DNA from: Bryobacterales bacterium
GTDB lineage: Bacteria > Acidobacteriota > Terriglobia > Bryobacterales > Bryobacteraceae
Assembly: GCA_003136575.1 (NCBI GenBank)
Contig: PLEX01000138.1
Location: forward strand, 1 to 36,040
Reading direction: 5' to 3'
DNA: 36,040 nucleotides
The notes beneath the pieces were generated by a model. That model searched no databases. It saw only the letters and a list, made by a program, of their open reading frames with translations, and had not been told where the DNA came from. How positions within the stretch are numbered: position 1 is the first letter of the stretch; each line of letters opens with the position of its first letter. Made by a program: the position numbers and the translations under genes. Of this stretch, positions 13,191 through 30,687 are shown piece after piece.

Positions 13191-13541
13191 GTGAAATGGT
13201 ATCGGATGCATCTGACGGAACAAGGTATCGCTGTCTTTACGGTGGAAGTCGCCAGTCTTGTGTCTTCCAATATCCCTGCGCTGCGGCAGAACGCGATTCT
13301 AGCCGATCTGGCGACGAGCCGGAGGGTCGTTATCGATCTGGGCGCGCTTCGCTATTTCGACGTGAGGGGCTTTACGGAAATTCTTCGTTGGGTGGCTCAG
13401 GCCGAGGACGCGGGTGACGTGCGGGTGTGCTCGGATTCTCCCGAGGTGCATGCGCTGTTGGAGTTGTTGCGGGGGCCATTGCTTCTGACCTGCTACGAAA
13501 GCCGTCAGAAAGCGCTGTCTTCCATGGTCAGGGACGAATGA
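13191..13541 (+). CDS. Stand-alone STAS-domain protein lacking the phospho-acceptor serine
   Basis: This encodes 116 residues from GTG 13191; ATG 13206 in the same frame is an alternative start. The whole protein is one STAS domain of the anti-sigma-factor-antagonist type: beta strands around IAVFTVEV and RRVVIDLGALRYFDV, then helix GFTEILRWVAQAEDAG, strand DVRVCS and helix PEVHALLELL. In canonical antagonists the motif is F-x-D-S-S/T-G with a phosphorylated Ser; here it reads YFDVRG, with Val58 in place of the Ser. It therefore probably works by binding rather than by a Ser phosphorylation switch, or needs no kinase. It opens the polysaccharide locus, so it may control it post-translationally. 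Confidence 0.8.
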   Translation: MKWYRMHLTEQGIAVFTVEVASLVSSNIPALRQNAILADLATSRRVVIDLGALRYFDVRGFTEILRWVAQAEDAGDVRVCSDSPEVHALLELLRGPLLLTCYESRQKALSSMVRDE

Positions 13542-13634
13542 AGTCATGCCGGAGCCAGGGCATAAAACAAAGCGTCCGAAGGAGGGCGGGGCAGCAATTG
13601 AATATTTCAATGTGTTCAGGCAAATGGAGATGCA

Positions 13635-14384
13635 ATGACAAACGCCACCGCAGTCGAACTCAACACTTATCTTCCAACCGTCACGATAAGGGAAATCATC
13701 CGCCGATACGAGCGTGACAACGGCGTCGTGTCAGGGCTGGTTCGCCGCATGCAATGGAGATGGCAAGTAGTCCGTGGCGAGTTGTGCAGGATTCTGAAGC
13801 GGCAGTTCGATCTTCTGGCTTCGCTTTTCCTGATGTTGTTGTTCAGTCCGATTATCTTAGTCGCCGCCGCGGCAATCAAGATGACGGACGGCGGAGCGAT
13901 CTTCCATCGTCATCTGCGGGTCGGGGAAAGCGGCCGTACGTTCTGGTTCCCGAAGTTCCGTTCCATGGTGCCGAACGCCGAAGCTATGCTGGGCAGCGTA
14001 ATGACCGACAACCATCACGGCGACAGCATCACGTTTAAGATAAAACGCGACCCGCGAGTCACCTCCGTCGGTCGTTTCCTGCGTCGGTTCAGCCTCGACG
14101 AATTGCCGCAATTATGGTGCGTGTTTCGTGGCGACATGTCCCTGGTAGGTCCGCGTCCCGCGCTTCCGCACGAGGTGGCGAACTACAGACAGTGCGAACG
14201 CCGCCGGCTCGAAGCCGCACCCGGTTTGACCTGCATCTGGCAGGTCACCGGCCGGGCGGACGTTCCTTTCGACCTTCAGGTGGCTATGGACGTGGACTAC
14301 ATCGAAAGGCAGAGTCTGATGCTGGACCTCAAGCTATTGATTCTTACGATCCCGGCCGTACTGACTGGCCGGGGAGCATACTAG
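13635..14384 (+). CDS. Phosphoglycosyl transferase, small monotopic type (WcaJ/PglC-like)
   Basis: This encodes 249 residues and has a GGAGA ribosome binding site upstream. It belongs to the bacterial sugar transferase family (PF02397). A basic N-terminal extension precedes the re-entrant membrane helix at about residues 58-80 (FDLLASLFLMLLFSPIILVA). Family motifs are all present: GESGRTFWFPKFRSM, FSLDELPQLW with the catalytic Asp155-Glu156 dyad, GDMSLVGPRPALPHE, PGLTCIWQVTGR and the C-terminal DVDYIERQS. It should transfer a sugar phosphate from a UDP-sugar to undecaprenyl phosphate, the first committed step of repeat-unit synthesis, at the cytoplasmic face of the inner membrane. The sugar cannot be read from the sequence. 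This is the only intact initiating transferase in the window. Confidence 0.9.
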   Translation: MTNATAVELNTYLPTVTIREIIRRYERDNGVVSGLVRRMQWRWQVVRGELCRILKRQFDLLASLFLMLLFSPIILVAAAAIKMTDGGAIFHRHLRVGESGRTFWFPKFRSMVPNAEAMLGSVMTDNHHGDSITFKIKRDPRVTSVGRFLRRFSLDELPQLWCVFRGDMSLVGPRPALPHEVANYRQCERRRLEAAPGLTCIWQVTGRADVPFDLQVAMDVDYIERQSLMLDLKLLILTIPAVLTGRGAY

Positions 14385-14413
14385 CTCTTCGCTAAGCGGG
14401 GAAAGGAGAAACA

Positions 14414-15766
14414 ATGAGAAGCGGTCTTGGTCTGTCCGGCGTTCCTTTCGACGACGTGTTGATGCCGGAAGTGCTGCAGCGGATCGGGGAATTTATCGAG
14501 GAGGGAGGCACTCACCAGTTAGCCACCGCTAACATCGATTACCTTGCGAAGGCCGCTGGGGATACAGAGTACCGGCGGATTCTCTGCATGTGTGATCTGG
14601 TAATGGCCGATGGCATGCCGATCGTCTGGGCGTCGCGTCTGTTCGGCGTCCCGCTGCGAGAGAGAGTCGCAGGGGCCGACCTGGTACCCCAATTGGCTCG
14701 CATGGCCGGACTCAGGGGTTACAGCATCTTTCTTCTGGGCGCGACACCCGAGGTGCTGGAGGCTGCGGCGCGCCATATGGAAAAGTTGAGTCCCGGAGTC
14801 CGTATCGTCGGCAAGGTATCCCCACCGATTTGTGCGCTGGACGCATTCGAAAACGAGCCGATTCTCGACGAAATCGCCCGTGCCAGGCCCGACATTCTGC
14901 TCGTCGCGTTCGGGAGCCCGAAGCAGGAAAAGTGGATCAGCAGGAACCGTCAACGGCTGAGCGTGCCGGTGTGCATTGGTATCGGGGCTTCTCTTGACTT
15001 TCTTGCCGGAACCGTTCGCCGGGCTCCGGCCTGGATGCAGCATTCGAGTCTGGAGTGGCTGTACCGAGTGTGGACTGAGCCGCAGCGCCTGGCGCCGCGC
15101 TACTTCGGGGACGCGGTCTGGATGACTCGCTACCTGACCGTACAAGTGGCCGTCCATTTTCGAGGGCGCCGCCGCGAGCATCTGAGAGTGTCGCTCGACT
15201 CGATCGGCTCCGTCGCGATTGTGAGTGTGTCCGGCGCGATGGCAGGTTCGGGATTAACCGCACTGGAGAATGTCTTGTCAACCGGGCTGGACTGCGGTGG
15301 ATCTGTAGTCCTCGATCTGACCGAGACTACGCACATGGGCGCGGACGGACTGTGGACGATGGTCGGGCTATTGCGGCGTGCCGTCAACCGCGGGTGCGAA
15401 GTGTGCCTGTGCGGCCTCTCTCCCAGTCTCCGCCGGACACTGAAGGCGGCGAATTTCGAGGGTCTCTTCCGTTCAGCGATTTCGTCACTTGAGGCTGTGC
15501 GGTTGATTTCGCCCGGTCGCCTGCAGATCAGTCTGGATCTCGGCGATGGTTGGGCGCTCTGTCGTATCCGCGGCGATTTGCCCGTCGGCGGGCGGGCAAC
15601 ACTGGAGGATATCTGCCATGGCCTTCGCCGCGCCCACGCAAATGTCGTATTCGACACAAGCGGCGCGGCCGGGTTCGACCCCGCCATTCTCGCGTGGCCG
15701 GCAGCATTGATTCGGCCGGTGAAGTATGTCGATGGGCGCGCACCGCGCGTTCAGGGAGCGGCCTGA
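14414..15766 (+). CDS. WecG/TagA/CpsF glycosyltransferase fused to tandem STAS-like domains
   Basis: This encodes 450 residues, with GGAGAA upstream of the ATG. Residues about 1-245 are a complete GT26 enzyme: LATANIDYL (Thr38), ADGMP (Asp66), RERVAGADL, FLLGATPEV, VAFGSPKQEKW and SLEWLYRVWTEPQRL. Thr38 and Asp66 match the residues considered catalytic in TagA. Family enzymes add the second sugar, often ManNAc or a uronate, to the lipid-linked acceptor. The usual length is about 240 residues; here 205 more follow. Residues about 259-360 form an STAS-like domain (VVLDLTETTHMGADGLW) in which the phospho-acceptor position is Ala310. Residues about 361-450 look like a second, shorter one (VVFDTSGAAGFDPAI), with Pro at the acceptor position. 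The gene follows the initiating transferase by 29 bases, and the fusion is a plausible regulatory arm. Confidence 0.85.
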   Translation: MRSGLGLSGVPFDDVLMPEVLQRIGEFIEEGGTHQLATANIDYLAKAAGDTEYRRILCMCDLVMADGMPIVWASRLFGVPLRERVAGADLVPQLARMAGLRGYSIFLLGATPEVLEAAARHMEKLSPGVRIVGKVSPPICALDAFENEPILDEIARARPDILLVAFGSPKQEKWISRNRQRLSVPVCIGIGASLDFLAGTVRRAPAWMQHSSLEWLYRVWTEPQRLAPRYFGDAVWMTRYLTVQVAVHFRGRRREHLRVSLDSIGSVAIVSVSGAMAGSGLTALENVLSTGLDCGGSVVLDLTETTHMGADGLWTMVGLLRRAVNRGCEVCLCGLSPSLRRTLKAANFEGLFRSAISSLEAVRLISPGRLQISLDLGDGWALCRIRGDLPVGGRATLEDICHGLRRAHANVVFDTSGAAGFDPAILAWPAALIRPVKYVDGRAPRVQGAA

Positions 15767-15773
15767 GGTCCCC

Positions 15774-17198
15774 ATGCGAGCTCTTGTTGTGGCCACTGAC
15801 CCGCCGACCGTGGTAGCCGCCGTCGGAATCTCGCTGCCAGTGCTCGACCGCTCCCTTGTCCAGCACCTGGTCGAATACGTTCTCGACCAGGGAGTTCAAC
15901 AGATCGATTTTGCCCTGCCTCCGGGTTTCGAAAGCGCAACAAGGTTGCTGGGCACGGGTCTTCGCTGGGGAGGGCATTTTAACCACTATTCCGTTCCCGA
16001 TGGATCATGGCCGATTGATGTGCTCCGGCCCGTTCTGAGCGCGTCCGGCGAAGAGAAAATACTGATCGCGTATGCCGACAACTTCTTTTTGGCTCCGATT
16101 CGCGTGGCGGCGGCGGCATCCCATAACACGATGTTCTACTGGCGCGAAAGCGGGCGGCTGGTCTGGACGGGATGGGGAGTGGTGCGAGCGGCGATGTTGA
16201 CGTTCATTCCACCCGGGATCGGCGGGCAACACCTCGCCGGCCGGATTTGTGCACTGCGGGAGGACACCCGGATTGTCGAAGTCAGCCAGCCCCTCAGTGT
16301 GGGTTGCTACGCGGACGTGATCGAATCCAATCGCCGGGCACTGTCCGGTGAGTACCCCGACATGCTTCGGCGGGGTAAAGAAGTCCGGCCCGGACTCTGG
16401 GTGGGCCGCAACGTCAGAATACATCCCACCGCAAGGCTGGTTCCCCCCGCGTTTGTCGGCGACAACAGCCGGCTCGGGGCCGGGGTCCAGGTCGGTCCTT
16501 CAGCTGTGATTGGCCGCGATTGTGTGATTGGCCGGAATACTCTCGTATCAAATTCCGTCATCGGCGACGGTAGTTACGTCGGCGAGGAACTTGACCTGAA
16601 GAGCGTGTTTGTGGACAGGTCGAAACTGATCAATACCCGTTTGAACGCGGCAATCGATGGAGTCGACGAGCGGCTGCTGGGCAGCGTGTCCGGCAGTTCG
16701 GGTGGGTACCTCCGGATGGCCTGCGAGGCTTTACTGGCAACACTGGTCCTGCTGTCCGCCCTTCCTCTTTTGGCCTTCCTCGCGGTGTTGTCGAGGCTGG
16801 CCTGCGGTCCCGCCCTGCATAAGAAGGCGGTCGTGAGAACACCGGCGGTGGCCGAACCGTTTCGCTGGAGCACTTTCGACATCTGGTATTTCGGAAATGA
16901 AAGCAGGTTCGGCCGATTTGGGAGCCTTTTCCTTTTCGCGCTTCCGGCACTGATCCATGTCGCTTTTGGCCGGCTGGCGCTCGTTGGCCCGCGGCCGCTG
17001 AGTATGGAAGAGATAAAAGAGCTTCCGGACGGCAAGCGTTTAAGGCATCTTCAGTTGCGCTCCGGCCTGCTTCAGGCAGGCATCCCGTGGGGGGGGGCAC
17101 GACGACAGCCCCGCCACGCCGCAGAGACGAGCCAGCGCGCCCGGCAACCATCCAGACGACCGTTCGTTGGCGTTTTCCGCCGGATGTCCGGCAAATGA
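15774..17198 (+). CDS. Nucleotidyltransferase-like / beta-helix / degenerate sugar-transferase fusion
   Basis: This encodes 474 residues from ATG 15774, seven bases after the preceding stop and behind GAGG. Residues about 1-205 resemble a sugar nucleotidyltransferase fold (PVLDRSLVQHLVEYV, ILIAYADNFFL) but lack the GGxGTRL catalytic loop. Residues about 210-300 contain hexapeptide repeats typical of a left-handed beta-helix (IHPTARLVPPAFVGDNSRLG and onward). Residues about 320-430 resemble the phosphoglycosyl-transferase domain, with a membrane helix and LALVGPRPLSMEE, but the catalytic Asp-Glu of SLDELPQ is replaced by Phe388-Ala389. The last 36 residues follow a nine-G tract (17089-17097) and look out of frame. 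All three parts appear catalytically impaired, so a scaffolding or regulatory role is more likely than catalysis. Confidence 0.75.
   Translation: MRALVVATDPPTVVAAVGISLPVLDRSLVQHLVEYVLDQGVQQIDFALPPGFESATRLLGTGLRWGGHFNHYSVPDGSWPIDVLRPVLSASGEEKILIAYADNFFLAPIRVAAAASHNTMFYWRESGRLVWTGWGVVRAAMLTFIPPGIGGQHLAGRICALREDTRIVEVSQPLSVGCYADVIESNRRALSGEYPDMLRRGKEVRPGLWVGRNVRIHPTARLVPPAFVGDNSRLGAGVQVGPSAVIGRDCVIGRNTLVSNSVIGDGSYVGEELDLKSVFVDRSKLINTRLNAAIDGVDERLLGSVSGSSGGYLRMACEALLATLVLLSALPLLAFLAVLSRLACGPALHKKAVVRTPAVAEPFRWSTFDIWYFGNESRFGRFGSLFLFALPALIHVAFGRLALVGPRPLSMEEIKELPDGKRLRHLQLRSGLLQAGIPWGGARRQPRHAAETSQRARQPSRRPFVGVFRRMSGK
17089..17097 (+). repeat. Nine-G homopolymer inside a coding region
   Basis: The run G9 lies about 100 bases before the stop of the fusion protein. 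As written, the frame ends at 17198. With one G fewer it would end at about 17234. With two fewer, or one more, it would run to 17284, three bases before the next gene, in a frame with a better protein-like pattern (DVRQMKREELRMPISFDPDF). Long G tracts are prone to replication slippage and to sequencing error. Confidence 0.7.
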
Positions 17199-17286
17199 AA
17201 CGGGAGGAACTTCGCATGCCGATTTCGTTTGATCCCGATTTTGTCTCAGGGCGCCGGTCTGCGCAGCACAGGAGGATGGCCTGATT

Positions 17287-18882
17287 TTGCCCACGGTATT
17301 GCGGCAAGAAGATAATACGGCAAGCGCGGAGTCCGGTTGGATTCCACGTGACCGCGCGGGCGTATTCGCTTCGGGCTACAGGCGGGCCGTGAACGCAGGA
17401 TGGAAACGCTCGCTGCTTTACGTGGCGATCCTCGCATCGATCTTATGGACGATCAATGCCGGTGTCCACAGCGCGGCGTTCGTCGATATCGTCAAACGCG
17501 TCGTCACGCCGATGACGCTCGAACCGATCGCGGTCTTGCCGGCGATTGCGTCGATAGCCGTTATTCGCTTGTCGTCGGTCGGGAGCGCAATTTATTGGGT
17601 CTATCTGCCCGTGTTGCTATTGCTGCCGGAGAACTATACCTGGGGGTGGCCGCCGCTCAGCTTCCATCAATATGCCATCGTGCCGATTGGGCTTGTGCTC
17701 TGCTGGCGAATCATAAGCGGCAAATGGAAGGGCTCGCTGTCGGACATCGCGGTCTTCGCCTTTATCGGCTGGATGGTCGTGGCCGATTTTCACAGTGCCG
17801 GGTCCGTCGATCTCGTCAAACGCATCGTCACACCGCTGACCCTTGCGGTGTTTCCCTACATGGCGGGTAAGCTCCTGATTGAACAGACGGGCCTTCGCAT
17901 CGCCTTCGCCAGGCGGTTTGTCTTTCTGCTGTTCGTCGACGTTTTGATTTCCGTGTACGAGTTTCGCTTTGGAGTGAATCCATTCCGGTTGGTTCTGAGC
18001 CATGCCTTCTCCGCCCCAAGTCCGTGGTTCACCCAAATCCGTTACGGGCTGGGACGAACGTCCGGTCCCTTCGGACACGCGATTCTTATGGGCGCGGCGG
18101 TGGCGATAGCCATAATTCTGCACGGATACCTTATGCGTTTCGGCTTGTGGGAGACAAGATTTCGCTGGCTCCACTCTGTCCCCCTCAGTAAGCGATGGAT
18201 CATCTTGTTCGGCTTGATCGCCGGCAGCGTCATGACGCTCTCCCGCGGACCCTGGCTGGCGGTTGCGGCCGGAGCCGCTATCGCTTCGGTCGGCGCCGCT
18301 CGCAATCGTGGCAGGGCTCTGAAGCGGGCCGTGACGGGGCTGGTTTTGTGCGGCGTACTTTTCTACGCCGTAGGCAAATCTTACGTTTCCGACCCCGTGG
18401 CTTTCCACGCCGGCGAAGAGGCCCTGGCCTCAGCCCAATACCGCACACAGCTGTTGGACGAGTATAAGGATATTGCGCTGTTGCGGCCTTTCTGGGGCTG
18501 GGGTTCTCTTTACTGGCCCCGCGTGCCGGGTATGGATTCAGTGGATAACTGGTACCTTCTGGTGACGCTGATGTATGGAGTCACGGGTCTGGTGCTGTTT
18601 GTGACAATGCTGGCAACCGCTTTTCTGCTTTTGATCCGTAAAGGCATGGCCGCCGCGGACCTGGACGGTGAGCGGCGCGCGCTTTGTTTCACTCTCAGTG
18701 GAATCGTCATGGCGATCTCAGTCGCCATCGCTACCGTATTCCTGGGCGCGCAGGTATATCCTCTGCTCTTCCTGTTTCTCGGATGGAGCGATGCCTGTCT
18801 TATGAATCGGACCGTGTTCAAATCGGCACCCGTGGTGGCTGAGCCGACACATGAGTTCTCTTTCCGGAGCGTGCTGGTGTGA
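17287..18882 (+). CDS. Wzy/WaaL-like O-antigen polymerase/ligase family membrane protein
   Basis: This encodes 531 residues. The likely start is TTG 17287, with AGGAGG (17270-17275) eleven bases upstream. It has about eleven hydrophobic segments over its length and one stretch of conserved character, VMTLSRGPWLA (Arg320-Gly321), the pattern preceding a membrane helix in O-antigen ligase/polymerase proteins (PF04932). A large periplasmic loop follows at about 355-420 (DEYKDIALLRPFWGWGSLYW). Such proteins polymerise lipid-linked repeat units, or transfer them, at the periplasmic face. As the only candidate in the locus, it is probably the polymerase. Residues 61-78 and 169-186 repeat one another (VDIVKRVVTPMTL and VDLVKRIVTPLTL), a sign of an internal duplication. 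It overlaps the next gene by four bases. Confidence 0.8.
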   Translation: MPTVLRQEDNTASAESGWIPRDRAGVFASGYRRAVNAGWKRSLLYVAILASILWTINAGVHSAAFVDIVKRVVTPMTLEPIAVLPAIASIAVIRLSSVGSAIYWVYLPVLLLLPENYTWGWPPLSFHQYAIVPIGLVLCWRIISGKWKGSLSDIAVFAFIGWMVVADFHSAGSVDLVKRIVTPLTLAVFPYMAGKLLIEQTGLRIAFARRFVFLLFVDVLISVYEFRFGVNPFRLVLSHAFSAPSPWFTQIRYGLGRTSGPFGHAILMGAAVAIAIILHGYLMRFGLWETRFRWLHSVPLSKRWIILFGLIAGSVMTLSRGPWLAVAAGAAIASVGAARNRGRALKRAVTGLVLCGVLFYAVGKSYVSDPVAFHAGEEALASAQYRTQLLDEYKDIALLRPFWGWGSLYWPRVPGMDSVDNWYLLVTLMYGVTGLVLFVTMLATAFLLLIRKGMAAADLDGERRALCFTLSGIVMAISVAIATVFLGAQVYPLLFLFLGWSDACLMNRTVFKSAPVVAEPTHEFSFRSVLV

Positions 18883-20084
18883 CAATCTCCGTTCAGCAGT
18901 TCCTGTTCCCGATCGGCGCGGTTGCGGCGGCCGTTACTATTCCGGGCGCGATTGAACTGATGCTGGTAACCAGCGGAGCCATCTTCGGGCGTTCTCGCTC
19001 CCTTCCGAGAAATCCCAGGAGGGGGCGTCTGGCGGCGATTGTTCCCGCGCACAACGAGGAGGCGCTGATCGGGCGTTGCGTCGCCAGCCTTCTCGCATCG
19101 GCCGCGAGCGGGACGCAGTGCTCCGTCATAGTCGTTGCCGACAACTGCACGGACGCTACGGCTTGGCGGGCCCGCGAAGCCGGAGCCGATGTGCTGGTGC
19201 GCCACGATTCGCGGCACCGCGGCAAAGGCTGCGCGCTGCGTTTCGCATTCGATCGACTAATCGAAGGCGGGTTTGACGGATTCCTGATCGTCGACGCGGA
19301 TTCGGTTGTCTCGGCGAACCTGGTGCCTGAAGTACTGGCAGCTCTGGCGGGAGGCGCAAACGCGGTTCAGACCCGCTACCGCGTTCGTCCACCGCTGAAT
19401 TCCAGCCGCAGGCGCGTTATGGATGTCGCGTTTCTCGCGTTTAACGTTTTGCGGCCAAAGGGCCGCGATGGCTGGGGGTTATCGGCAGGCATCCTCGGCA
19501 ACGGTTTTGCTCTGAGCCGGCAAACACTGCAGGAGGTTCCATATTCCGCCGACTCTATTGTGGAAGATCTTGAGTACCATCTTCTTCTGGTAAATGCGAA
19601 CAAGAAAGTCCGTTTTGCCAACGCGGCGACTGTTTACGGCGACATGCCGGAAGATGCCGGGGCAGGCGTATCTCAGCGGGCCCGCTGGGAGGGCGGGCGC
19701 GCCCGAGTCGCACGCGTCTGGGTTCCGAAGCTGGCGGCACAGTTGGCGCACGGGAAGCTGAGCGTGGCCGAACCACTTCTCGAACTGCTGACTCTGCCGC
19801 TTGCCTATATGGTCCTGATAGTGTCGGCGCTCTGTGTTTTTCCAACCGGACCGTTGCGATGGTACGGAGCGGCAGTCATGGGTCTGATCGTAGTGTACGT
19901 CGCGTCCGCGGTGTCGCTGGGTGGCAGGGTGGGCGAGAGTCTTACAGCGCTGGCGGCCGCTCCCGTTTACGTCGCCTGGAAGCTAAGATCGCTCGGGGCG
20001 ATTGTTCACGCGTCGCGGGCGCAAGCGCAATGGATACGGACCCCTCGTGACAGCCACCCAACCGGAAAGGTACCCCATGTTTAA
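18879..20084 (+). CDS. Membrane-anchored GT2 glycosyltransferase
   Basis: This encodes 401 residues. GTG 18879 overlaps the preceding stop as GTGTGA, typical of translational coupling. One hydrophobic segment at about residues 9-32 precedes a GT-A domain (about 50-260). Visible GT2 features are LAAIVPAHNEEALIGRCVAS, VVADNCTDAT, FLIVDADSVV (the DxD metal/nucleotide site), GILGNGFALSRQTL, and IVEDLEYHLLL, followed by QRARWEGGR as the QxxRW motif of processive-type GT2 enzymes. Two or three C-terminal helices follow (LPLAYMVLIVSALCVF, AAVMGLIVVYVASAVSL). The enzyme would add one sugar at the cytoplasmic face of the inner membrane. QxxRW resembles processive synthases, but the Wzx/Wzy context argues for single addition. 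Confidence 0.85.
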   Translation: MTISVQQFLFPIGAVAAAVTIPGAIELMLVTSGAIFGRSRSLPRNPRRGRLAAIVPAHNEEALIGRCVASLLASAASGTQCSVIVVADNCTDATAWRAREAGADVLVRHDSRHRGKGCALRFAFDRLIEGGFDGFLIVDADSVVSANLVPEVLAALAGGANAVQTRYRVRPPLNSSRRRVMDVAFLAFNVLRPKGRDGWGLSAGILGNGFALSRQTLQEVPYSADSIVEDLEYHLLLVNANKKVRFANAATVYGDMPEDAGAGVSQRARWEGGRARVARVWVPKLAAQLAHGKLSVAEPLLELLTLPLAYMVLIVSALCVFPTGPLRWYGAAVMGLIVVYVASAVSLGGRVGESLTALAAAPVYVAWKLRSLGAIVHASRAQAQWIRTPRDSHPTGKVPHV

Positions 20085-20616
20085 TCGCCTGCGCGAGGAT
20101 TGGCGTACATACGAGGGCAATCCGCTCAGTCCGGGCCTTTGGGTCATGGTGGTTTACCGCTTTGGCCGATGGCGCTACGGGATCCCCTGGCGGCTGGTGC
20201 GGATGCCTTTTTCGCTCGCATACAAACTGGCGCTCGCGTTCGTCTCCGCAGCGAGCGGGGCTGAGTTGCCGTGCGAGGTCGAAATCGGCCGCAGGCTGCG
20301 TATCGATCACTCTCGCGGACTGGTAGTCAGCGGCGATGCGCGATTGGGCGATGACGTGATTCTCCGAAACGGAGTGACCATCGGACTGCGAAGGACTGGC
20401 AGACGGGGCGCGCCGGTCATTGGAGATCGCGTCGATATCGGAGCCGGTGCGAAGATCCTGGGTTCCATCCGGATCGGGAACGACTCGTGCATCGGGGCTA
20501 ATGCGGTCGTTCTTACGGATGTCCCGCCGTACTCGATTGCCGCGGGGGTACCGGCAACTGTTCGTTCACGAACGAGCAGGGAACAATGGAGCGAAGAATG
20601 CATAAACGTTCGTTAA
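20077..20616 (+). CDS. Serine-acetyltransferase-like left-handed beta-helix acyltransferase
   Basis: This encodes 179 residues from ATG 20077, preceded by GGAAAGG and overlapping the previous gene by eight bases. The N-terminal 70 residues hold an amphipathic, partly hydrophobic helix (LVRMPFSLAYKLALAFVSAA). Hexapeptide repeats follow, starting around CEVEIGRRLRIDHSRGLVVS. The His in IDHSRG matches the catalytic His of CysE-type acetyltransferases. VTIGLRR, GDRVDIGAGAKILGSIRIG and GIPA-like AAGVPATVRS are family features. Proteins of this kind in polysaccharide loci usually O-acetylate a sugar with acetyl-CoA; true cysteine biosynthesis is unlikely in this context. Confidence 0.85.
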   Translation: MFNRLREDWRTYEGNPLSPGLWVMVVYRFGRWRYGIPWRLVRMPFSLAYKLALAFVSAASGAELPCEVEIGRRLRIDHSRGLVVSGDARLGDDVILRNGVTIGLRRTGRRGAPVIGDRVDIGAGAKILGSIRIGNDSCIGANAVVLTDVPPYSIAAGVPATVRSRTSREQWSEECINVR

Positions 20617-23734: not shown

Positions 23735-25196
23735 CCAACTTAACCAACGCCTGCGCCAGTGGAACGTGCCGACGACTCCAGCTGTCGGACCACAACTAAC
23801 GCCGGATCGCCGCACCGCAGTTCGTTCAGGTCCGATTCCGTTCGCATTGGCGAAGGGTGTTGCGGACGAAGCGCAAGAGCCGCCGGACGCGGCGCGACAC
23901 ATTGCAGGAGCCACCCGCTCAGCCGGGTTCGGCGGCGTCGCTTGCGCGTGCTCCTTAAAAAAAGCCGCGCCCGTCGCGACGCGGGAACGGCCGCGCGCGA
24001 CGGTGCCCATGGCATATCTCCTGAGCCGTTATCCGGCCTGTTCTCACACCTTCCTTCTCAATGAGATTCAGGCCCTTCGACAACTCGGCTTTGAGATCGT
24101 GACTGCGTCGATTAATCCCTCTGATCGACCCTCGCCAGAACTCGAAGAAGCCGAGCGAAGGGAAGAGGAAAAGACCTTCTATGTGAAACGAGGCGGATTC
24201 GGGCCCGCGCTCCGGGCGCTTGTTTCCGCTCTGGTCCAACGCCCGGCCGGCGTGTTCCGGGGGCTGTACTTTACCGCTTGGCTGGGTGGCGGCGGAGTGC
24301 GGTTCTTCTATTTTCTCGAAGCCCTGATGGTGGGAAACTGGATGCTCCGTCACGGGCGCTCGCACCTTCACGCGCATTTCGGCGGTCCGGTCGCCAGTGT
24401 CGCCATGATCGTCGCGCGCACATTTCCCGTGACCATGTCTTTCACGGTCCACGGACCGGACGAGTTCTACGACGTCGAAAAGTTTTGTCTTCGCCAAAAA
24501 ATTCAAACCGCTTCTTTTGTTTGTTGCATCAGCTCGTACGCGCGCAGCCAGCTCATGATGTTCACGCCCGCCGCGGAGTGGGATAAATTGCTGGTCTCGC
24601 GCCTCGGTGTGGATTGCGAGAAGTTTTCGCCTTTTCACCGCTTGGTCGCCGCCGAGTGCGTCGAAATCGTCTGCGTCGGCCGCCTCGTCCCCGCGAAGGG
24701 GCAACACATCCTGCTGGCTGCCGTTGGACGTCTGCTGGACGGGGGTCGAAACATCCGTCTCCGTTTGGTTGGAGACGGACCCGAACGCGGGAACCTCGAG
24801 GCGATGGTGGCCGAACATGGAATCGGCGGACGGATCGTCTTTGAAGGCGCAGTCGGCGCCAGCCGGGTTCGCACGATTCTTGCGGGCGCGGATATATTCG
24901 CGCTGCCAAGCTTCGCGGAAGGCATTCCCGTGGCGCTGATGGAGGCAATGGCCATGGAAATCCCCTGCGTGAGCACCACCATCACCGGAATTCCCGAACT
25001 GATTCGGCATGGGGTCGATGGGTTGCTCGTCGCACCGTGCGAGGTCGGCCAGCTTACCGCCGCACTCGTCCGGCTGATTGACGACCCGGATCAGCGCCGA
25101 CGATTGGGCATGGCGGGACGCCGCCGAGTTGCGGAGGAATTCGATTTGCAACGGAATGCCAAGAAGCTGGGGGAGATCTTCCAATGCCGACTCTGA
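23715..25196 (+). CDS. Glycosyltransferase family 4 with long N-terminal extension
   Basis: This encodes 493 residues if it starts at ATG 23715, which has a G-rich ribosome binding site and overlaps the previous gene by 20 bases. The first 98 residues are Ala/Pro/Arg-rich and unlike the family. GT4 proteins normally begin at the equivalent of MAYLLSRYPACSHTFLLNE, encoded from ATG 24009. GT-B motifs are complete: HAHFGGPVASVAM, FTVHGPDEFYD, VSRLGVDCEKFSP, VCVGRLVPAKGQHILL, LVGDGPERGNLEAM and FAEGIPVALMEAMAMEIPCV, which holds the E-x7-E nucleotide-sugar motif. It resembles WcaL-type colanic acid transferases. The acceptor and donor are unknown. Confidence 0.85.
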   Translation: MKKFALSQLNQRLRQWNVPTTPAVGPQLTPDRRTAVRSGPIPFALAKGVADEAQEPPDAARHIAGATRSAGFGGVACACSLKKAAPVATRERPRATVPMAYLLSRYPACSHTFLLNEIQALRQLGFEIVTASINPSDRPSPELEEAERREEEKTFYVKRGGFGPALRALVSALVQRPAGVFRGLYFTAWLGGGGVRFFYFLEALMVGNWMLRHGRSHLHAHFGGPVASVAMIVARTFPVTMSFTVHGPDEFYDVEKFCLRQKIQTASFVCCISSYARSQLMMFTPAAEWDKLLVSRLGVDCEKFSPFHRLVAAECVEIVCVGRLVPAKGQHILLAAVGRLLDGGRNIRLRLVGDGPERGNLEAMVAEHGIGGRIVFEGAVGASRVRTILAGADIFALPSFAEGIPVALMEAMAMEIPCVSTTITGIPELIRHGVDGLLVAPCEVGQLTAALVRLIDDPDQRRRLGMAGRRRVAEEFDLQRNAKKLGEIFQCRL

Positions 25197-26212
25197 CCGC
25201 GCCGGCGTCCAATTCCGTCCCTGTGGATGGAGAACGCAAATACGATCTTTCCGTCGTTATCGTGTCCTACAACACGCGGGACGTGCTGGACCGCTGTTTC
25301 CGTCATCTGAAGGAGGCGTCCGGCGGTCTGACCCTCGAAATCATCGTGGTCGACAACGGATCGGGTGACGGGTCGGTAGCAATGATCGAGGCGAACCACC
25401 CCGACATCCGCGTCATCCGAAGCGAGGTCAACCTCGGATTCGGCGTCGCCAATAATCGGGCTTTGTCGCTCGCCTCGGGCCGCTACTTCATACTCCTGAA
25501 TTCGGATGCATTCCTGCGTCCTGATGCCTTGCGGCGCGCGGTCGAACTGATGGACGCGAATCCCCGGGCTGGCTTCGGCGGAGGTCGTTTGATCGGTCCG
25601 GAAGAATCCTGGCAGCCTTCGGCGCGGAGTTTCCCGTCCCTTCTGAACGATTTTCTCAGCCTCTCTGGCCTTGCCGCCCGATTCCCCAATTCCCGCTTCT
25701 TCGGACGAGGCGACCGGACATGGAGCGATGCCGGGCGACCGGCCGAGGTGGACTGGGTCCCTGGTGCGTTCGCCATCGTTCGGCCCGACGCGTTGGCCGC
25801 CGCGGGCAGCTTCGACGAGTCTTTCTTCCTTTATTACGAGGAAGTCGATCTGTGCCGAAGAATCAAGGCCCTCGGTTACAGGATCTTGTACTGGCCCGAC
25901 GTCGTGATCGTGCACCTTGGCGGCGAATCGTCCAGGACGACAGGGCAGCGGATCTCCCGCGCCGGCTCGCAGTTGACGCTCTGGAGGCTCCGCAGCAGGC
26001 TGATCTATTACCGCAAGCACCACGGCGCGCGCGCATACCCCGCATATCTGATGGAGCTTCTATGGCATCGGGCGCGGTGGTTTCGCAACAGCTTCGGAGC
26101 GGGCGGGGAACGTCGTGAAAAAGCCACGGAGAGTCTGACGATCTGCGTTGACGCGAAGCGCGCATGGAAGGAAACGCGCGGCGGAAGAGTTTCTCCGCCA
26201 CGTCCCTGGTAA
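25184..26212 (+). CDS. GT2 glycosyltransferase, rhamnosyltransferase-like
   Basis: This encodes 342 residues and overlaps the GT4 gene by 13 bases. The start at ATG 25184 gives a short Ala/Pro-rich lead before the GT-A core: DLSVVIVSYNTRDVLDRCF, EIIVVDNGSGDGSVAMI, VNLGFGVANNRAL and FILLNSDAFLRPDAL. DWVPGAFAIVRPDAL, FDESFFLYYEEVDLCRRIKA and ILYWPDVVIVHLGGESSR follow, a block typical of WbbL/rhamnosyltransferase-type GT2 proteins. The Asn-Ser-Asp in FILLNSDA serves as the DxD-type metal site. It is soluble or peripheral, with no membrane segment. It would act as an inverting transferase in repeat-unit assembly; rhamnose is only a guess from resemblance. Confidence 0.85.
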   Translation: MPTLTAPASNSVPVDGERKYDLSVVIVSYNTRDVLDRCFRHLKEASGGLTLEIIVVDNGSGDGSVAMIEANHPDIRVIRSEVNLGFGVANNRALSLASGRYFILLNSDAFLRPDALRRAVELMDANPRAGFGGGRLIGPEESWQPSARSFPSLLNDFLSLSGLAARFPNSRFFGRGDRTWSDAGRPAEVDWVPGAFAIVRPDALAAAGSFDESFFLYYEEVDLCRRIKALGYRILYWPDVVIVHLGGESSRTTGQRISRAGSQLTLWRLRSRLIYYRKHHGARAYPAYLMELLWHRARWFRNSFGAGGERREKATESLTICVDAKRAWKETRGGRVSPPRPW

Positions 26213-26218
26213 AATGCC

Positions 26219-27226
26219 ATGACCGAACCCAATATCTCCGTCGTAGTAATCGGCCGCAACGAAGGCGCGCGCCTCGTACGTTGCCTGGAATCCGTCCGGA
26301 ACATGCGATGGTCCGGCGCGATTGAACTCATTTACTGCGATTCCAACTCGGGCGATGGTTCGGCCGATCGGGCCAGGGCGTTCGGAAGCCGGGTCGTCGA
26401 GATAGGAACCGGACGCCTTACCGCGGCTCGCGCGCGTAACGCCGGTTGGCAGCTCTCCTCCGCTCCGTTCATTCTGTTTCTCGATGGCGATACCATCCTG
26501 CATCCCGAATTCGTAACGAACGGCATGGCGAAGTTCAAGGACGATCCGCGCATCGCCGTGGTCTGGGGGCATCGCCGCGAAATGCATCCTGAAGCGTCGC
26601 TGTACAATCGCATTCTCGATCTCGACTGGATCTACGAGCCAGGCTTAACCGAATTCTGCGGCGGCGATGCCCTCATGCGCCGTGTCGCCGTGCAGAGGGC
26701 CGGCGGGTTCAATCCCGACCTGATCGCCGGAGAGGAACCCGATCTGTGCCGAAGAATCCGGGCCAATGGCGAACTGATTCTGCATATCGATGCGCCGATG
26801 ACCGGTCACGACCTCGCAATGACGAACTGGCGGGAATACTGGATGCGGGCGGTCCGCGGGGGCTACGCGTACGCCGAGATCGCGGCGCTTTACAGGAACA
26901 CCTCCGACCCGCTCTGGGCATCGACCTCGCGTAGTAATGTCATCCGGGCTTGTATCTATGTGATTGCCCCGGCCGCGGCGATTCTTATTGCCCTTGTGCT
27001 GCGCTCGTGGGTGGCTATCCTTCTGTTCCTCTTCTGTGCAGCTGCGTTGATCGGCCGAACCGCCATCCGGGCGCGCCGGAAGCACGGCTCCTTCGCCACA
27101 CTGATCCTGTTTGCCGTTCATTCTCACGTTCAGCACATTCCGGTTTTTGTTGGCCAGCTCCGTTACCGGACGATCGCGGGAAGACATGGGCGAAGCGAGC
27201 TTATCGAATACAAGAGGCCTGCATGA
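26219..27226 (+). CDS. GT2 glycosyltransferase with C-terminal membrane helices
   Basis: This encodes 335 residues, starting six bases after the preceding stop. The GT-A domain (about 1-230) has NISVVVIGRNEGARLVRCLE, IYCDSNSGDGSADRA, FILFLDGDTILHPEF (DGD as metal site), FCGGDALMRRVAVQRAGGF, and EEPDLCRRIRANGELILHID. Two hydrophobic segments at about 245-285 (IYVIAPAAAILIALVL and VAILLFLFCAAALIG) anchor the C-terminus. The stop overlaps the next small ORF as ATGA. It would add one sugar at the inner membrane. The donor cannot be deduced. Confidence 0.85.
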   Translation: MTEPNISVVVIGRNEGARLVRCLESVRNMRWSGAIELIYCDSNSGDGSADRARAFGSRVVEIGTGRLTAARARNAGWQLSSAPFILFLDGDTILHPEFVTNGMAKFKDDPRIAVVWGHRREMHPEASLYNRILDLDWIYEPGLTEFCGGDALMRRVAVQRAGGFNPDLIAGEEPDLCRRIRANGELILHIDAPMTGHDLAMTNWREYWMRAVRGGYAYAEIAALYRNTSDPLWASTSRSNVIRACIYVIAPAAAILIALVLRSWVAILLFLFCAAALIGRTAIRARRKHGSFATLILFAVHSHVQHIPVFVGQLRYRTIAGRHGRSELIEYKRPA

Positions 27227-27339
27227 CGACCTGCAACTTTTCGGCCGCAACGGCGTCGCGCGCAGAAAGGCCCACTGCGCAGGTCAAACGGGTCGATTAC
27301 GGCAAGGCGCGCGTTTACGCCATGGTGACCACACGATGA
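27223..27339 (+). CDS. Possible 38-residue coupling peptide gene
   Basis: ATG 27223 overlaps the GT2 stop as ATGA, and the stop at 27339 overlaps the ATG of the next acyltransferase (27336), again as ATGA. The peptide starts MTTCNFSAATASRAERP and ends YGKARVYAMVTTR. Third codon positions are mostly G or C, as in the neighbours. With no such frame, ribosomes from the GT2 gene would reach the next start only after a 110-base gap. The function is unknown; the peptide may serve only to carry ribosomes across, or be a small protein. Confidence 0.5.
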   Translation: MTTCNFSAATASRAERPTAQVKRVDYGKARVYAMVTTR

Positions 27340-27995
27340 GAAGGCTGATTAAGTCGGCGATCGGCGCGTTTCTTGTACCGGTGCTTCGGTCCGCGCGCCC
27401 GGCGTTAGAGGACATTCGCCGGATGAAAGCATTCCTGATTCTGAGTTCCCGGATCACCGGTCCGGTAGATCCCTCGGTCGTGGTGCTTGGTTCGCCGGAG
27501 GTGCGCGGGACAGGAAATATCAGGCTGGGGCGGCAGTTGTTGCTGTATCCGGACATCTACCTCGAAACGGAGGCTGGCGGCGTCATCGATCTTGGCGATG
27601 GAGTTGTCATATCCCGCGGCGTCCATATCGTCGCCTACGGGGCCATCAAGATCGGCCCGGGTTCGATGATAGGCGAGTACACCAGTATTCGCGACGCCAA
27701 TCATTCCCGCGCGGCGGATCGCTCTCTGCTCGATGGAGCTCTCTCCGCGGCGGCGATTTCCATCGGCCGCCAGGTCTGGATCGGCAGAGGCGTAACGATC
27801 CTTCCCGGCGTTTCCATCGGCGACGACGCAACAGTTGGCGCCAACGCGGTGGTGACGCGTGACGTGGCGGCGGGAACGACGGTCGCGGGCGTGCCCGCCG
27901 TTCCCATCCGTCCCACCAGGCCCCGTTCGGAAGCAGCCGGGATCGCTTCGCAACGAGATACAGAAGTACCCGGGTTAGTTGCGGTCGGTGGATAG
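27336..27995 (+). CDS. Left-handed beta-helix acyltransferase (WbbJ/MaaA-like)
   Basis: This encodes 219 residues from ATG 27336; the frame opens further upstream but there overlaps other genes. After a hydrophobic or amphipathic N-terminal segment (SAIGAFLVPVLRSARPALED), hexapeptide repeats run from about residue 60 to 195: GNIRLGRQLLLYPDIYLETE, GVVISRGVHIVAYGAIKIGP, and GRQVWIGRGVTILPGVSIGD. The motifs IRDANHSR, with the catalytic-type His, and GANAVVTRDVAAGTTVAGVP are hallmarks of acetyltransferases of the maltose/galactoside O-acetyltransferase group. It probably acetylates a sugar of the repeat unit. The C-terminal 25 residues are not conserved in character. Confidence 0.85.
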   Translation: MRRLIKSAIGAFLVPVLRSARPALEDIRRMKAFLILSSRITGPVDPSVVVLGSPEVRGTGNIRLGRQLLLYPDIYLETEAGGVIDLGDGVVISRGVHIVAYGAIKIGPGSMIGEYTSIRDANHSRAADRSLLDGALSAAAISIGRQVWIGRGVTILPGVSIGDDATVGANAVVTRDVAAGTTVAGVPAVPIRPTRPRSEAAGIASQRDTEVPGLVAVGG

Positions 27996-28061
27996 CGGAA
28001 ACATCAGGAGTGGGGACTGTCCGGCAAAGACACATCATCGACCCTTTACAACAGCCCTGAC

Positions 28062-29492
28062 GTGGCACTCAAGCCTGTTCCGGCCACGGAATTGCGGGCG
28101 GAGGGTTTGACTGCGTCGCGGCACGCGCGTGGGCCATCCGACACCGTCCGCTCCTCCCTTGTGGCGCGGGCAGCCAAGGGTACCCTCTGGACCATCGGCG
28201 CTTATGCGGTCACCCAGATCGTGCGCCTGCTGAGCAGCATCCTGCTGAGCCGTTTGCTTCTGCCGAAGTACTTCGGGCTGATGGCGCTTCTGAACACAAT
28301 GATGATCGGCCTGTCTCTTTTTTCCGATCTTGGTCTGGTTCCGAGCGTGATCCGCAGTGAGAGAGGAGACGACCCCGGCTATCTGAATACGGTCTGGACG
28401 GTGCAGGTAATCCGCGGCTTCGGCCTCTGGCTGGTGTGTGCGGGCCTGAGTTGGCCGATCATGCGGTTTTACGGCAATTCACAACTGCTGACGCTCGTTC
28501 CGGCGCTGGGGTTGAGCCTTATCATTACCGGCTTTAACTCAACGAGCGTTCTCACGTTCAACAGGCACATGGAGGTGCGCAACGTGGCCCTCCTCGAACT
28601 TCTTACGCAGGCATTCCAGCTGGCCGTGACGGTGGTAGCCGCGCTGGTCGACCCGTCCGTCTGGGCTCTCGTGTTTGGACGTCTGGCTTCCGATGCGTTG
28701 CGGGTGGTCATCAGCCACTTCATGATTGCCGGTTATCGAAACCGGTTTGCCCTTGACAAAGCAACCGTTCGCGAATTGCTCTCCTTCGGGAAGTGGGTCT
28801 TCGCTTCGACGGCGGTCACGTTTCTCGCTTCCCAGTCCGACCGTCTGGTGCTGGGAAAACTGGTGTCGATGACAACGCTCGGTCTGTACGGCGTTGCGTT
28901 CGCCCTTGCGGATATGCCACGGCAGATCATCCTTGCATTCGCGGGGCGCGTGGGACTTCCGTTCGTAGCCGGCTTCGCTTCGCTCGGGCGCTCCGAGTTT
29001 CGCGCGGTTGTGCTGCGTTACCGGCGAATCGTGCTCCTGGTAGGCGTCGTTTTGCTGGCGGTCGTGGTGAATTCCAGCGACCTGTTTCTGGTCCACGTCT
29101 ACGACCGGCGGTTCCGGGATGCCGCCTGGATGGCCCCCATTCTCGCGCTCGGCTTATGGCACACGATCCTCTACAGCACCACTACGCCATGTCTTACGGC
29201 TTTGGGGAAAATGAGCTACAACATTTGTGGCTACGCGCTGACGGCGCTCGTCCTGCTGGTGGCCGTTCCCGCGACTTTTCATGTCTGGGGACTCGCGGGA
29301 GCCTTGTGGGTTATCGCTTTCAGCGATCTGCCCGTGTACTTTACCAACTTGTTCGGGTTATGGCGCGAGGGTCTTTTCCCACTGGTGCAGGATTTCGAAA
29401 TGACGATTGCCTTTATCGTCTGCGCCGGAGGTCTGTTCCTGCTTCGGGCGTCGATGGGAGTTCCGTGGCCCCGCTCCATCCCGTTGCACTAA
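28062..29492 (+). CDS. Wzx-like polysaccharide flippase (MOP superfamily)
   Basis: This encodes 476 residues from GTG 28062; no ATG lies in a suitable place. After about 40 basic, soluble residues, a run of about twelve membrane helices begins at AKGTLWTIGAYAVTQIVRLL. The pattern SSILLSRLLLPKYFGLMALL is typical of Polysacc_synt flippases. LGLYGVAFALADMPRQIIL and FVAGFASLGRSEFRAVVLRY in the middle match the same family. The protein should move the undecaprenyl-linked repeat unit across the inner membrane. It is the only flippase gene in the locus, which supports the Wzx/Wzy route. Confidence 0.88.
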   Translation: MALKPVPATELRAEGLTASRHARGPSDTVRSSLVARAAKGTLWTIGAYAVTQIVRLLSSILLSRLLLPKYFGLMALLNTMMIGLSLFSDLGLVPSVIRSERGDDPGYLNTVWTVQVIRGFGLWLVCAGLSWPIMRFYGNSQLLTLVPALGLSLIITGFNSTSVLTFNRHMEVRNVALLELLTQAFQLAVTVVAALVDPSVWALVFGRLASDALRVVISHFMIAGYRNRFALDKATVRELLSFGKWVFASTAVTFLASQSDRLVLGKLVSMTTLGLYGVAFALADMPRQIILAFAGRVGLPFVAGFASLGRSEFRAVVLRYRRIVLLVGVVLLAVVVNSSDLFLVHVYDRRFRDAAWMAPILALGLWHTILYSTTTPCLTALGKMSYNICGYALTALVLLVAVPATFHVWGLAGALWVIAFSDLPVYFTNLFGLWREGLFPLVQDFEMTIAFIVCAGGLFLLRASMGVPWPRSIPLH

Positions 29493-29559
29493 ACGGCTTC
29501 CCGCCGGTCTCGCTCGCCACGACCCGGTGCAGGCATTGGCTTCTTTTACTGAGGTGATC

Positions 29560-30687
29560 ATGAACGGCAAACGCAATTTCGGCCTCGACCTGCTTCGCGC
29601 CGGCGCCATCGCCGGAGTATTCCTTGCCCATGGAGTAACGGCGTTAGAGAGTCTGGGCATCGGCGTGGATCTGTTCTTCGTGTTGTCCGGTTTTCTGATT
29701 GGCCGTATTTACTTCCGATGGAGCCGCGCAGGCCACTTCAATATCGGCAAATTCTGGATCGAACGCTGGTGGAGGACGCTCCCGCCCTATCTTGCCGCGC
29801 TCGGCCTTTTCGCTCTGGCCGAACGGTGGATTCCGAGCAATCCCGTCAATTGGCGCTATCTTCTCTTTCTGCAGAACTTCACGGGGATCGCAGGCTTCGG
29901 ACCCTCATGGAGTCTGTGCGTCGAAGAGCACTTCTATCTGCTGCTGCCGATCCTGGCGCTGATGGCGGAGCGTCTGTTCGGCAGGAAGCAGTTCAACTGG
30001 CTCCTTCCGGCGGCCTTCCTCACCCCCACTTTGTTTCGGCTGGCGGCGATTGTGCGAGTGGGCGGCGTCGTCAATATGCCCCGCGAGTGGTATCGAATGA
30101 CGCCCTTTCACTGCGACGGGCTTATTGCGGGCGTATATCTGGCGTTCCTGTTCGTGGAACACCCGGATTGGTTCGCGTCCGCCAGGCGTCCGGCGCTGTG
30201 CTGCGCTCCGCTCGTCGTCGTCTCTGTCCTCGCTACTCCATTGCTGAAAGGCGGTGTCTGGTTCGAATCGCTGCACAGCGCAGTCGAAGCCCTGGGTTTC
30301 GCGGGCTGGCTGCGGCTCGCCTACGATTTCTCGTGGACGCCTCTCACACTCGCAGGTCGACTCTCCGAAAAAGCCATCCGCGGAATGGCGTTGGTTTCAT
30401 ACAGCATTTATCTGCTCCATGTACTGGTGATGACCGACCTCCACGTTATCCTGAACGCCTGGAGCCGCGGCGCGGGAAAATCCTTGTTTATTTTAGGCGC
30501 GACATTAATGGTCTGTGTCGCTTTCTACTTCCTGGTTGAGAAACCAAGCATCCGGTCGCGTGACCGTTTCCTCGGCCGGCAGGAGCCGCTGGCACCTCGC
30601 ATGCCGGAGCCAATTCCGATCAGCCCGTGGACCCGTCGCCGCCGGGATGCGGATGAGGGGCTGCAGTCCGGGGCGACCGGCGCTTAA
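29560..30687 (+). CDS. Acyltransferase-3 family membrane protein
   Basis: This encodes 375 residues from ATG 29560, which has GAGGTGA just upstream; the frame extends to 29407 within the flippase gene, but that part is not family-like. Motifs of acyltransferase-3 proteins are FGLDLLRAGAIAGVFLAHGV, DLFFVLSGFLIGRIYF, FWIERWWRTLPPYLAALGLF, WSLCVEEHFYLLLPILAL and VSYSIYLLHVLVM. About ten hydrophobic helices are present. The C-terminal 40 residues are Pro/Arg-rich and likely cytoplasmic. Members O-acylate surface sugars in the membrane or periplasm. It is the last gene of the locus, and its motif content is complete. Confidence 0.88.
   Translation: MNGKRNFGLDLLRAGAIAGVFLAHGVTALESLGIGVDLFFVLSGFLIGRIYFRWSRAGHFNIGKFWIERWWRTLPPYLAALGLFALAERWIPSNPVNWRYLLFLQNFTGIAGFGPSWSLCVEEHFYLLLPILALMAERLFGRKQFNWLLPAAFLTPTLFRLAAIVRVGGVVNMPREWYRMTPFHCDGLIAGVYLAFLFVEHPDWFASARRPALCCAPLVVVSVLATPLLKGGVWFESLHSAVEALGFAGWLRLAYDFSWTPLTLAGRLSEKAIRGMALVSYSIYLLHVLVMTDLHVILNAWSRGAGKSLFILGATLMVCVAFYFLVEKPSIRSRDRFLGRQEPLAPRMPEPIPISPWTRRRRDADEGLQSGATGA

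Follow-up and report, generated by a model that had tools for sequence, protein, structure and literature searches.

Gene content of the locus

Positions 13,191 to 30,687 of a 36,040-nucleotide stretch of Bryobacterales DNA (contig PLEX01000138.1, here C189; hereafter the window) hold a polysaccharide operon whose first four genes appear to be a derived copy of a module that probably controls polysaccharide priming. The source, G000, is a metagenome-assembled genome (MAG) of 6.6 Mb and 83% completeness; G and L numbers denote genomes and loci. The genes encode, in order, STAS1; the phosphoglycosyl transferase (PGT) PGT1; WecG-STAS2-STAS3; a fusion of a nucleotidyltransferase (NTase)-like domain, a left-handed beta-helix (LbH) and a PGT-like domain without the Asp-Glu dyad (pseudoPGT), termed here the triple fusion; Wzy; the glycosyltransferase (GT) GT2a; an acetyltransferase; Wza; Wzz with a BY-kinase-like end; GT4; GT2b; GT2c; LbH2; Wzx; and an acyltransferase. 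The product is a Wzx/Wzy-type polysaccharide, made and exported by the operon. Every gene named in a preliminary description of this DNA is an open reading frame (ORF), and its account of three STAS, one PGT-like and one BY-kinase-like domain without signature residues agrees with the missing phospho-serine, Asp-Glu dyad and Walker A motif.

STAS1 passes the Pfam threshold for STAS_2 (34.8 bits against a cut-off of 29.2). It is the first gene of the module, with the same place and order as the STAS genes of L086, L089, L093 and L106. The ORF at 14414-15766 encodes WecG (E 3.5e-62) and one Pfam STAS domain (E 2.3e-11, residues 261-352), and the predicted structure of WecG-STAS2 is a TagA fold plus a SpoIIAA-like STAS. 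STAS3 falls below the Pfam threshold and is the weakest of the three STAS assignments, supported by alignment with a chlamydial WecG-STAS-STAS protein and by a model with pLDDT of about 45-61 in that part. The phospho-acceptor site reads FDVRG in STAS1 and MGADG and FDPAI in the other two, versus DSxG in relatives. Since the DSxG serine is absent from all three (0/3, against 18/18 linked STAS not fused to WecG), the window STAS are not classed as members of a phospho-switch.

PGT1 keeps the dyad (SLDELPQLW), and DE is invariant in 13/13 rows of an alignment of the window PGT with 12 of the 24 PGTs that neighbour triple fusions. WecG retains T38, D66 and R225, the equivalents of TagA T37, D65 and R221; its closest NCBIfam match is EpsA, at 190 bits below the cut-off of 500. 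Because PGT1 and WecG are intact, the operon is not all-degenerate.

The triple fusion belongs to a family of pseudo-enzymes

In the window triple fusion (ORF 15726-17198) the G-x-G-x-R loop and the PKP-type lysine are missing on inspection by eye, and FALPALI replaces the DELPQL stretch of live PGTs, while the family's conserved GLRWG and the LbH core are still held. The NTase-like domain had been described as lacking its catalytic loop, and this extends to the family, in which G-x-G-x-R, the PKP-type lysine and the DE dyad of the pseudoPGT are each found in 0/28 sequences. The neighbouring PGTs have DELPQL in 22/24 cases (L099 has DEFPQL and L098 is cut off). The C-terminal domain is homologous to live PGT (hhalign, 97.4%) and is, judged by its sequence, a pseudoPGT and not a PGT. 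The family alignment holds the window and 26 of the 30 triple-fusion loci found (L098, L103, L106 and L107 were left out).

Among 61 relatives searched, 40 have some match to the triple fusion, mostly short hits to the LbH or PGT part. Mapping the genes around the 11 strongest matches outside G000 shows the full NTase-LbH-pseudoPGT in eight same-genus genomes (31-37% identity) and NTase-LbH without pseudoPGT in three. A contig scan yielded 53 loci, of which 30 have the triple fusion (two of them truncated ahead of the pseudoPGT) and 23, all gammaproteobacterial, have NTase-LbH only; L037-L044 and L078-L084/L097 are the same contigs and were counted once. The triple-fusion loci come from Acidobacteria, deltaproteobacterial groups, Riflebacteria, Planctomycetota, Hydrogenedentes and Chlamydiae, and a restriction to Acidobacteria is thereby rejected. 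The gammaproteobacterial proteins (L108-L130, mostly Arenicella) are kin to the triple fusion, about 370-400 residues long, with no pseudoPGT, STAS or PGT in the fetched flanks.

A model of the L078 protein (mean pLDDT 78, about 58 in the LbH part) matches tlr0611, MurU, RmlA and GMPPA/GMPPB; its pseudoPGT part has no structural match among the 50 matches listed. A GMPPA chain is also the best PDB sequence match of the window NTase-LbH part (E 8.1e-8), over the LbH only. GMPPA is an inactive allosteric subunit. Unlike the triple fusion, GMPPA/GMPPB (GDP-mannose pyrophosphorylase) have neither a pseudoPGT nor a polysaccharide operon.

The window pseudoPGT matches profile positions 12-130 of 189 only and ends at about 17072, 16 bases ahead of a run of nine G (17089-17097). 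The missing last third was not recovered in any of the three frames as far as 17300. For this reason, and because the dyad is absent family-wide anyway, a frameshift was rejected as the sole explanation of the unusual pseudoPGT. The G run, just past the end of the homology, could be a real indel site or an MAG assembly error.

Two clades of WecG

The WecG proteins of relatives have an N-terminal PGT-like domain, homologous to PGT (hhalign, 99.9%), with the DE dyad in 0/18; 16 of these 18 rows were aligned (L088 and L090 are cut off). The window WecG has no such domain and carries the C-terminal STAS instead. Eight WecG-STAS proteins were found: those of the window and G065, L187-L191 (one other family of the class) and the chlamydial L095, whose pair of STAS matches the window arrangement. 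The first STAS is Ser-less in 8/8. In a tree that leaves out WecG pieces below 180 residues and ORFs of at most 300 residues among L078-L106, the eight form one clade (95/93) and 23 pseudoPGT-WecG rows another (100/100). A stricter cut-off used for that tree marks L188 as "alone", although it carries a STAS. Convergent fusion was rejected, as the tree favours one clade; yet L095 is a long branch of unsure placement. Nor is the fusion a one-off, being present in 2/257 genomes of the order (match past residue 300) and 6/396 of the phylum, plus L095; the phylum survey asked for at least 350 of 448 positions covered and scored at most 4-6 candidates per genome, so misses are possible. In L095 (3591-5117) the WecG-STAS-STAS gene lies right behind the triple fusion, and both STAS are Ser-less; the contig is an 8.1-kb piece of a chlamydial MAG, where a binning error is possible.

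Linkage to STAS, SpoIIE and HATPase genes

The 30 triple-fusion loci have STAS in 19, SpoIIE in 11 and HATPase in 10 cases, compared with 1, 2 and 1 in 20 control regions (20 kb) and none in the 23 gammaproteobacterial NTase-LbH loci. The STAS enrichment (Fisher p 2.7e-5 against control regions, 8e-7 against gammaproteobacterial loci) involves loci in five phyla. Thirteen of the 19 linked STAS lie at most 600 bases from a module gene, and the serine is kept in 18, the exception being the WecG-fused L095. The order STAS-PGT-WecG-triple fusion in relatives is also that of the window. The module is real, not a chance arrangement, and is wider than the preliminary description saw.

In L038 a receiver (158 residues), a SpoIIE-HATPase_c_2 protein (660 residues) and a STAS (122 residues) are encoded together, with a hybrid histidine kinase on the other side. 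In two chlamydial MAGs (L102:1744-3825 and L104:7190-9238) SpoIIE, HATPase and STAS, that is phosphatase, kinase and substrate, form one chain beside the PGT. Single-domain receivers that recall EpsW (see below) directly precede the SpoIIE-HATPase gene at L038:12880-13353, L040:12816-13310, L041:3987-4442 and L089:4901-5389; the L038 receiver was called by Pfam and the other three are alike by eye.

An orthologous kinase-phosphatase (679-1487 bits) is present in 6 of the 61 relatives, all with the triple fusion, on the same contig in five and on another in G014. G003 and G004 have the triple fusion and no such orthologue. No cognate kinase or phosphatase lies in the window, and the best SpoIIE match in G000 reaches just 95.5 bits.

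A sister operon and selection

The G065 operon encodes WecG-STAS2, Wzy, GT2a, acetyltransferase, Wza, Wzz-BY-kinase-like, GT4, GT2b, GT2c, LbH2 and Wzx in that order, the shared genes being 48-75% identical to those of the window. Its STAS2 keeps GADG, and its STAS3 is mostly deleted, in frame. The 40 kb of this region lack STAS1, PGT1 and the triple fusion, and a search of the whole G065 genome for the triple fusion gave an LbH match only (E 3.6e-4); other PGTs lie elsewhere in that genome (best 46%). In five further WecG-STAS operons, the 18-20 kb retrieved contain no free STAS and no triple fusion. As the G065 operon is without STAS1, STAS3 and the triple fusion, the degenerate domains are not one co-conserved unit, contrary to the earlier view of them as such. 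Absence from an otherwise conserved operon had been named beforehand as refuting that view, and it is what G065 presents for these three.

The Walker A motif GK[ST] is missing in the window Wzz and in 13/16 alignment rows (one of the 13, L085, is a partial ORF). All 11 rows whose operons share the window's gene set are among these 13; L087, L092 and L099 keep a GKT/GKS-type or GKT-like loop (EGKTM, EGKTF, EGKTS). The BY-kinase-like end is part of the export machinery, with Walker A lost across the whole operon class.

Over six pairs, dN/dS (NG86) is 0.04-0.32 for the NTase-like domain and 0.12-0.22 for the pseudoPGT, and 0.04-0.11 for PGT and 0.07-0.16 for WecG; the N-terminal pseudoPGT gives 0.08-0.16 (three usable pairs). 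Between the window and G065 the values are 0.11 for WecG, 0.23 for STAS2 and 0.11 for the BY-kinase-like end, with dS near saturation. These values, which carry no significance test and are uninformative on the window's STAS1, STAS3 and triple fusion, speak against relaxed selection in the pseudo-domain families, a possibility that had been raised. For STAS1 and the triple fusion, the search gave no relative close enough to measure selection in the window lineage. Because the residues are missing family-wide with dN/dS below 0.33, the pseudo-domains appear ancestrally dead and not a product of local decay. The earlier judgement that the operon is not decaying thus holds for the families (dN/dS 0.04-0.32) and is qualified by the window's own truncated pseudoPGT.

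Other features of the window

The coordinates of all features are given in Table 1. ARAGORN calls a tRNA-Ser (TGA) at 19294-19386 (+), wholly within the same-strand GT2a gene; it is probably false. Downstream of the operon, at 31843-36038, an adjoining pair resembles an RND-type efflux membrane-fusion protein and pump, judged from the ORFs only, and runs off the window end.

Table 1. Features of the operon in window coordinates
Feature	Position	Strand	Basis and remarks
STAS1, free single-domain STAS, Ser-less (FDVRG)	13191..13541	+	Pfam STAS_2; ATG 13206 the likelier start by homology
PGT1, intact monotopic phosphoglycosyl transferase, DE dyad kept	13635..14384	+	Pfam Bac_transf E 1.9e-60; aligns with WbaP
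WecG/TagA/CpsF glycosyltransferase domain	14414..15163	+	Pfam; T38/D66/R225 kept
STAS2, joined to WecG C-terminus, Ser-less (GADG, kept in G065)	15194..15469	+	Pfam STAS and model fold
STAS3, the other STAS-like domain joined to WecG, assigned with low confidence; chlamydial L095 has it, G065 has lost most of it	15509..15742	+	Alignment with L095 and model
NTase-like (RmlA/MurU/GMPP fold) domain without G-x-G-x-R	15774..16350	+	ORF may begin at 15726; start 15774 by homology
LbH (hexapeptide) domain	16390..16690	+	Pfam Hexapep E 2.6e-13
PseudoPGT without DE dyad	16696..17198	+	Homology stops at about 17072; non-homologous tail past G9 run 17089-17097
Wzy/O-antigen-ligase-like polymerase	17287..18882	+	Pfam
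GT2a, family 2 glycosyltransferase	18879..20084	+	Pfam
Serine-acetyltransferase-like hexapeptide acetyltransferase	20002..20616	+	Pfam; ORF overlaps GT2a, start probably about 20077
Wza-like polysaccharide export protein	20586..21683	+	Pfam, NCBIfam
Wzz-like co-polymerase, BY-kinase-like end without Walker A (pseudokinase)	21680..23734	+	That end 61% identical to G065
Glycosyltransferases GT4 (23715-25196), GT2b (25184-26212), GT2c (26219-27226)	23715..27226	+	64-71% to G065 operon
LbH2, hexapeptide acetyltransferase	27111..27995	+	Pfam; G065 counterpart
Wzx flippase	28062..29492	+	70% identity to G065 counterpart; ORF inspection
Acyltransferase-3-like protein, end of interval	29407..30687	+	Name by ORF inspection alone, no Pfam run

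Comparison with known systems

In gene content the loci resemble SypE-SypA of the Vibrio fischeri syp locus, in which a DSxG-type STAS gene and a kinase/phosphatase protein lie in a polysaccharide locus (PMC4517449). The unphosphorylated form of SypA is described as active, since S56A complements and S56D does not (PMC4517449), and its target is stated as unknown (PMC4517449, PMC8256260). Accounts of its action disagree, one placing it at the transcription of biofilm genes (PMC8256260) and the other at a post-transcriptional step (PMC4517449). Unlike SypE-SypA, the loci of relatives have SpoIIE-HATPase, with the receiver separate, beside pseudoPGT and pseudoNTase proteins, and the window STAS is Ser-less and fused to WecG.

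In Myxococcus xanthus the phosphorylated receiver EpsW~P stimulates the PGT EpsZ by contact, and the BY pseudokinase EcpK works with the co-polymerase (PCP) EpsV (PMC12802240). The likeness lies in a small phospho-regulated protein acting on a priming PGT and in a BY pseudokinase with a co-polymerase; EpsW differs from the STAS loci in being a receiver, and the available part of that account mentions no dead PGT or NTase partner for EpsW-EpsZ. Control through the WecG/TagA C-terminus, where the window has its STAS fused, is reported in Caulobacter, in which HfiA binds the C-terminus of the WecG/TagA enzyme HfsJ (PMC3900383); unlike the window STAS, HfiA is described as an inhibitor with no known domain, neither a STAS nor fused. 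TagA requires its C-terminal appendage (PMC6493773), and the same end bears the STAS in the window. Anabaena all4160 is a glycosyltransferase with a STAS domain (PMC8256260) needed for heterocyst polysaccharide (PMC4390870). Its STAS is reportedly N-terminal, unlike that of the window WecG-STAS, and it is likened here from its published description. Neither the pseudoNTase-LbH-pseudoPGT family nor the WecG-STAS proteins were found described in the literature searched, which mostly excludes subscription journals.

Proposed mechanism and alternatives

Given the SypA, EpsW-EpsZ, HfiA-HfsJ and TagA precedents, the module is read as controlling priming by protein contact. In its commoner form the intact PGT would load the first sugar phosphate on undecaprenyl phosphate, and WecG with its N-terminal dead PGT would add a sugar. 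The dead NTase-LbH-dead PGT protein may be a membrane-side scaffold or sugar-nucleotide sensor. The STAS would be phosphorylated on DSxG by the attached HATPase kinase and dephosphorylated by the SpoIIE phosphatase, and its unphosphorylated form would dock on the priming complex and turn it on. In the window the switch appears hard-wired, with a WecG of the other clade that carries a Ser-less C-terminal STAS, a Ser-less STAS1 and no orthologous kinase found; if SypA S56A is a guide, a STAS without the serine would stay "on" at all times. STAS1 may be decaying slowly, as may the truncated triple fusion. The STAS and SpoIIE/HATPase genes beside homologous modules strengthen the earlier suggestion of control by binding partners. 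A partner switch acting on priming by protein contact, locked on and partly decaying in the window, is in our estimate an evenly balanced proposition.

Several observations weigh against it. Contact of a STAS with PGT, WecG or the triple fusion is something we infer from neighbours and fusions, which are circumstantial. The SpoIIE enrichment is weak (11/30, one an 85-residue hit, versus 2/20; p 0.0498). A STAS is missing from 11 of the 30 loci. Seven of these are truncated on the side where it would lie, L087 and L094 lack it upstream only, and in L085 (with about 10 kb on each flank) and L100 the absence is genuine on both sides. The STAS genes of L078-L081 and L084 are divergently oriented and lie some 2.5 kb away. 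Seven STAS loci (L092, L093, L099, L102, L104, L105, L106) have PGT and NTase-LbH and no WecG in the fetched DNA; therefore WecG cannot be the general target, and a general partner is more likely to be PGT or the triple fusion. Training of the STAS profile drew on 18 STAS from the 30 loci themselves, though a seven-sequence profile found the same 19; the control regions were hand-picked in 11 genomes, all acidobacterial; nearly all loci are MAGs; and in G000, at its 83% completeness, a kinase could be missed.

The window may instead hold a decay remnant, in which the module was inherited, kinase and phospho-site were lost, STAS1, STAS3 and the triple fusion are vestigial, and only WecG-STAS2 and the export proteins work. 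The truncation of the pseudoPGT beside the G9 run, the serine lost from STAS1 and kept in 18/18 linked free STAS, the 95.5-bit SpoIIE match against 679-1487 bits in six relatives, and the absence of STAS1, PGT1, STAS3 and the triple fusion from the G065 operon all fit this, but no frame is broken, G065 retains both STAS2 and the BY-kinase-like end with the low dN/dS values given above (dS near saturation), and the triple fusion retains GLRWG and the LbH core. It is somewhat unlikely, yet a serious contender.

Another explanation is that the STAS, SpoIIE and HATPase proteins act on a sigma or anti-sigma factor and merely adjoin the sugar genes. The sigma/anti-sigma partner switch is the classical role of STAS and HATPase_c_2 proteins (PMC8256260), and hybrid histidine kinase and receiver genes are near in L038. 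However, eight proteins from two phyla carry the STAS on the same chain as the WecG enzyme, and no sigma factor occurs among the 20 relatives' proteins run against Pfam, the neighbours not having been screened systematically; transcriptional control of this kind is improbable. Least probable is the model of the preliminary description, in which binding partners hold every degenerate domain, the BY-kinase-like Wzz among them, in a single operon-specific assembly. All the domains are present with residues missing as described, but the members vary in presence independently of one another, the WecG-STAS and pseudoPGT-WecG forms belong to alternative clades, and Walker A is missing in the operon class with or without the triple fusion near. 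G065, keeping just WecG-STAS2 and the BY-kinase-like end, largely contradicts such an assembly.

Significance

Partner-switch control of polysaccharide synthesis was known before; the variant with dead enzyme paralogues proposed here would be new. Loci that combine a STAS and its kinase-phosphatase with one live PGT and dead PGTs of two types, together with the WecG-STAS clade, make the priming complex a direct candidate for the target of SypA-type STAS proteins. It is possible, if doubtful, that five or more phyla share a class of priming complexes whose single live PGT is surrounded by a regulatory platform of dead PGT and NTase paralogues, that a STAS phospho-switch opens or closes this platform, and that the complex, to which the WecG-STAS fusions point, is the target of SypA-type STAS regulators. 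The regulated step would be the one that commits scarce undecaprenyl phosphate, and the dead PGT and NTase proteins, conserved between phyla, would represent a novel type of regulatory subunit for it.

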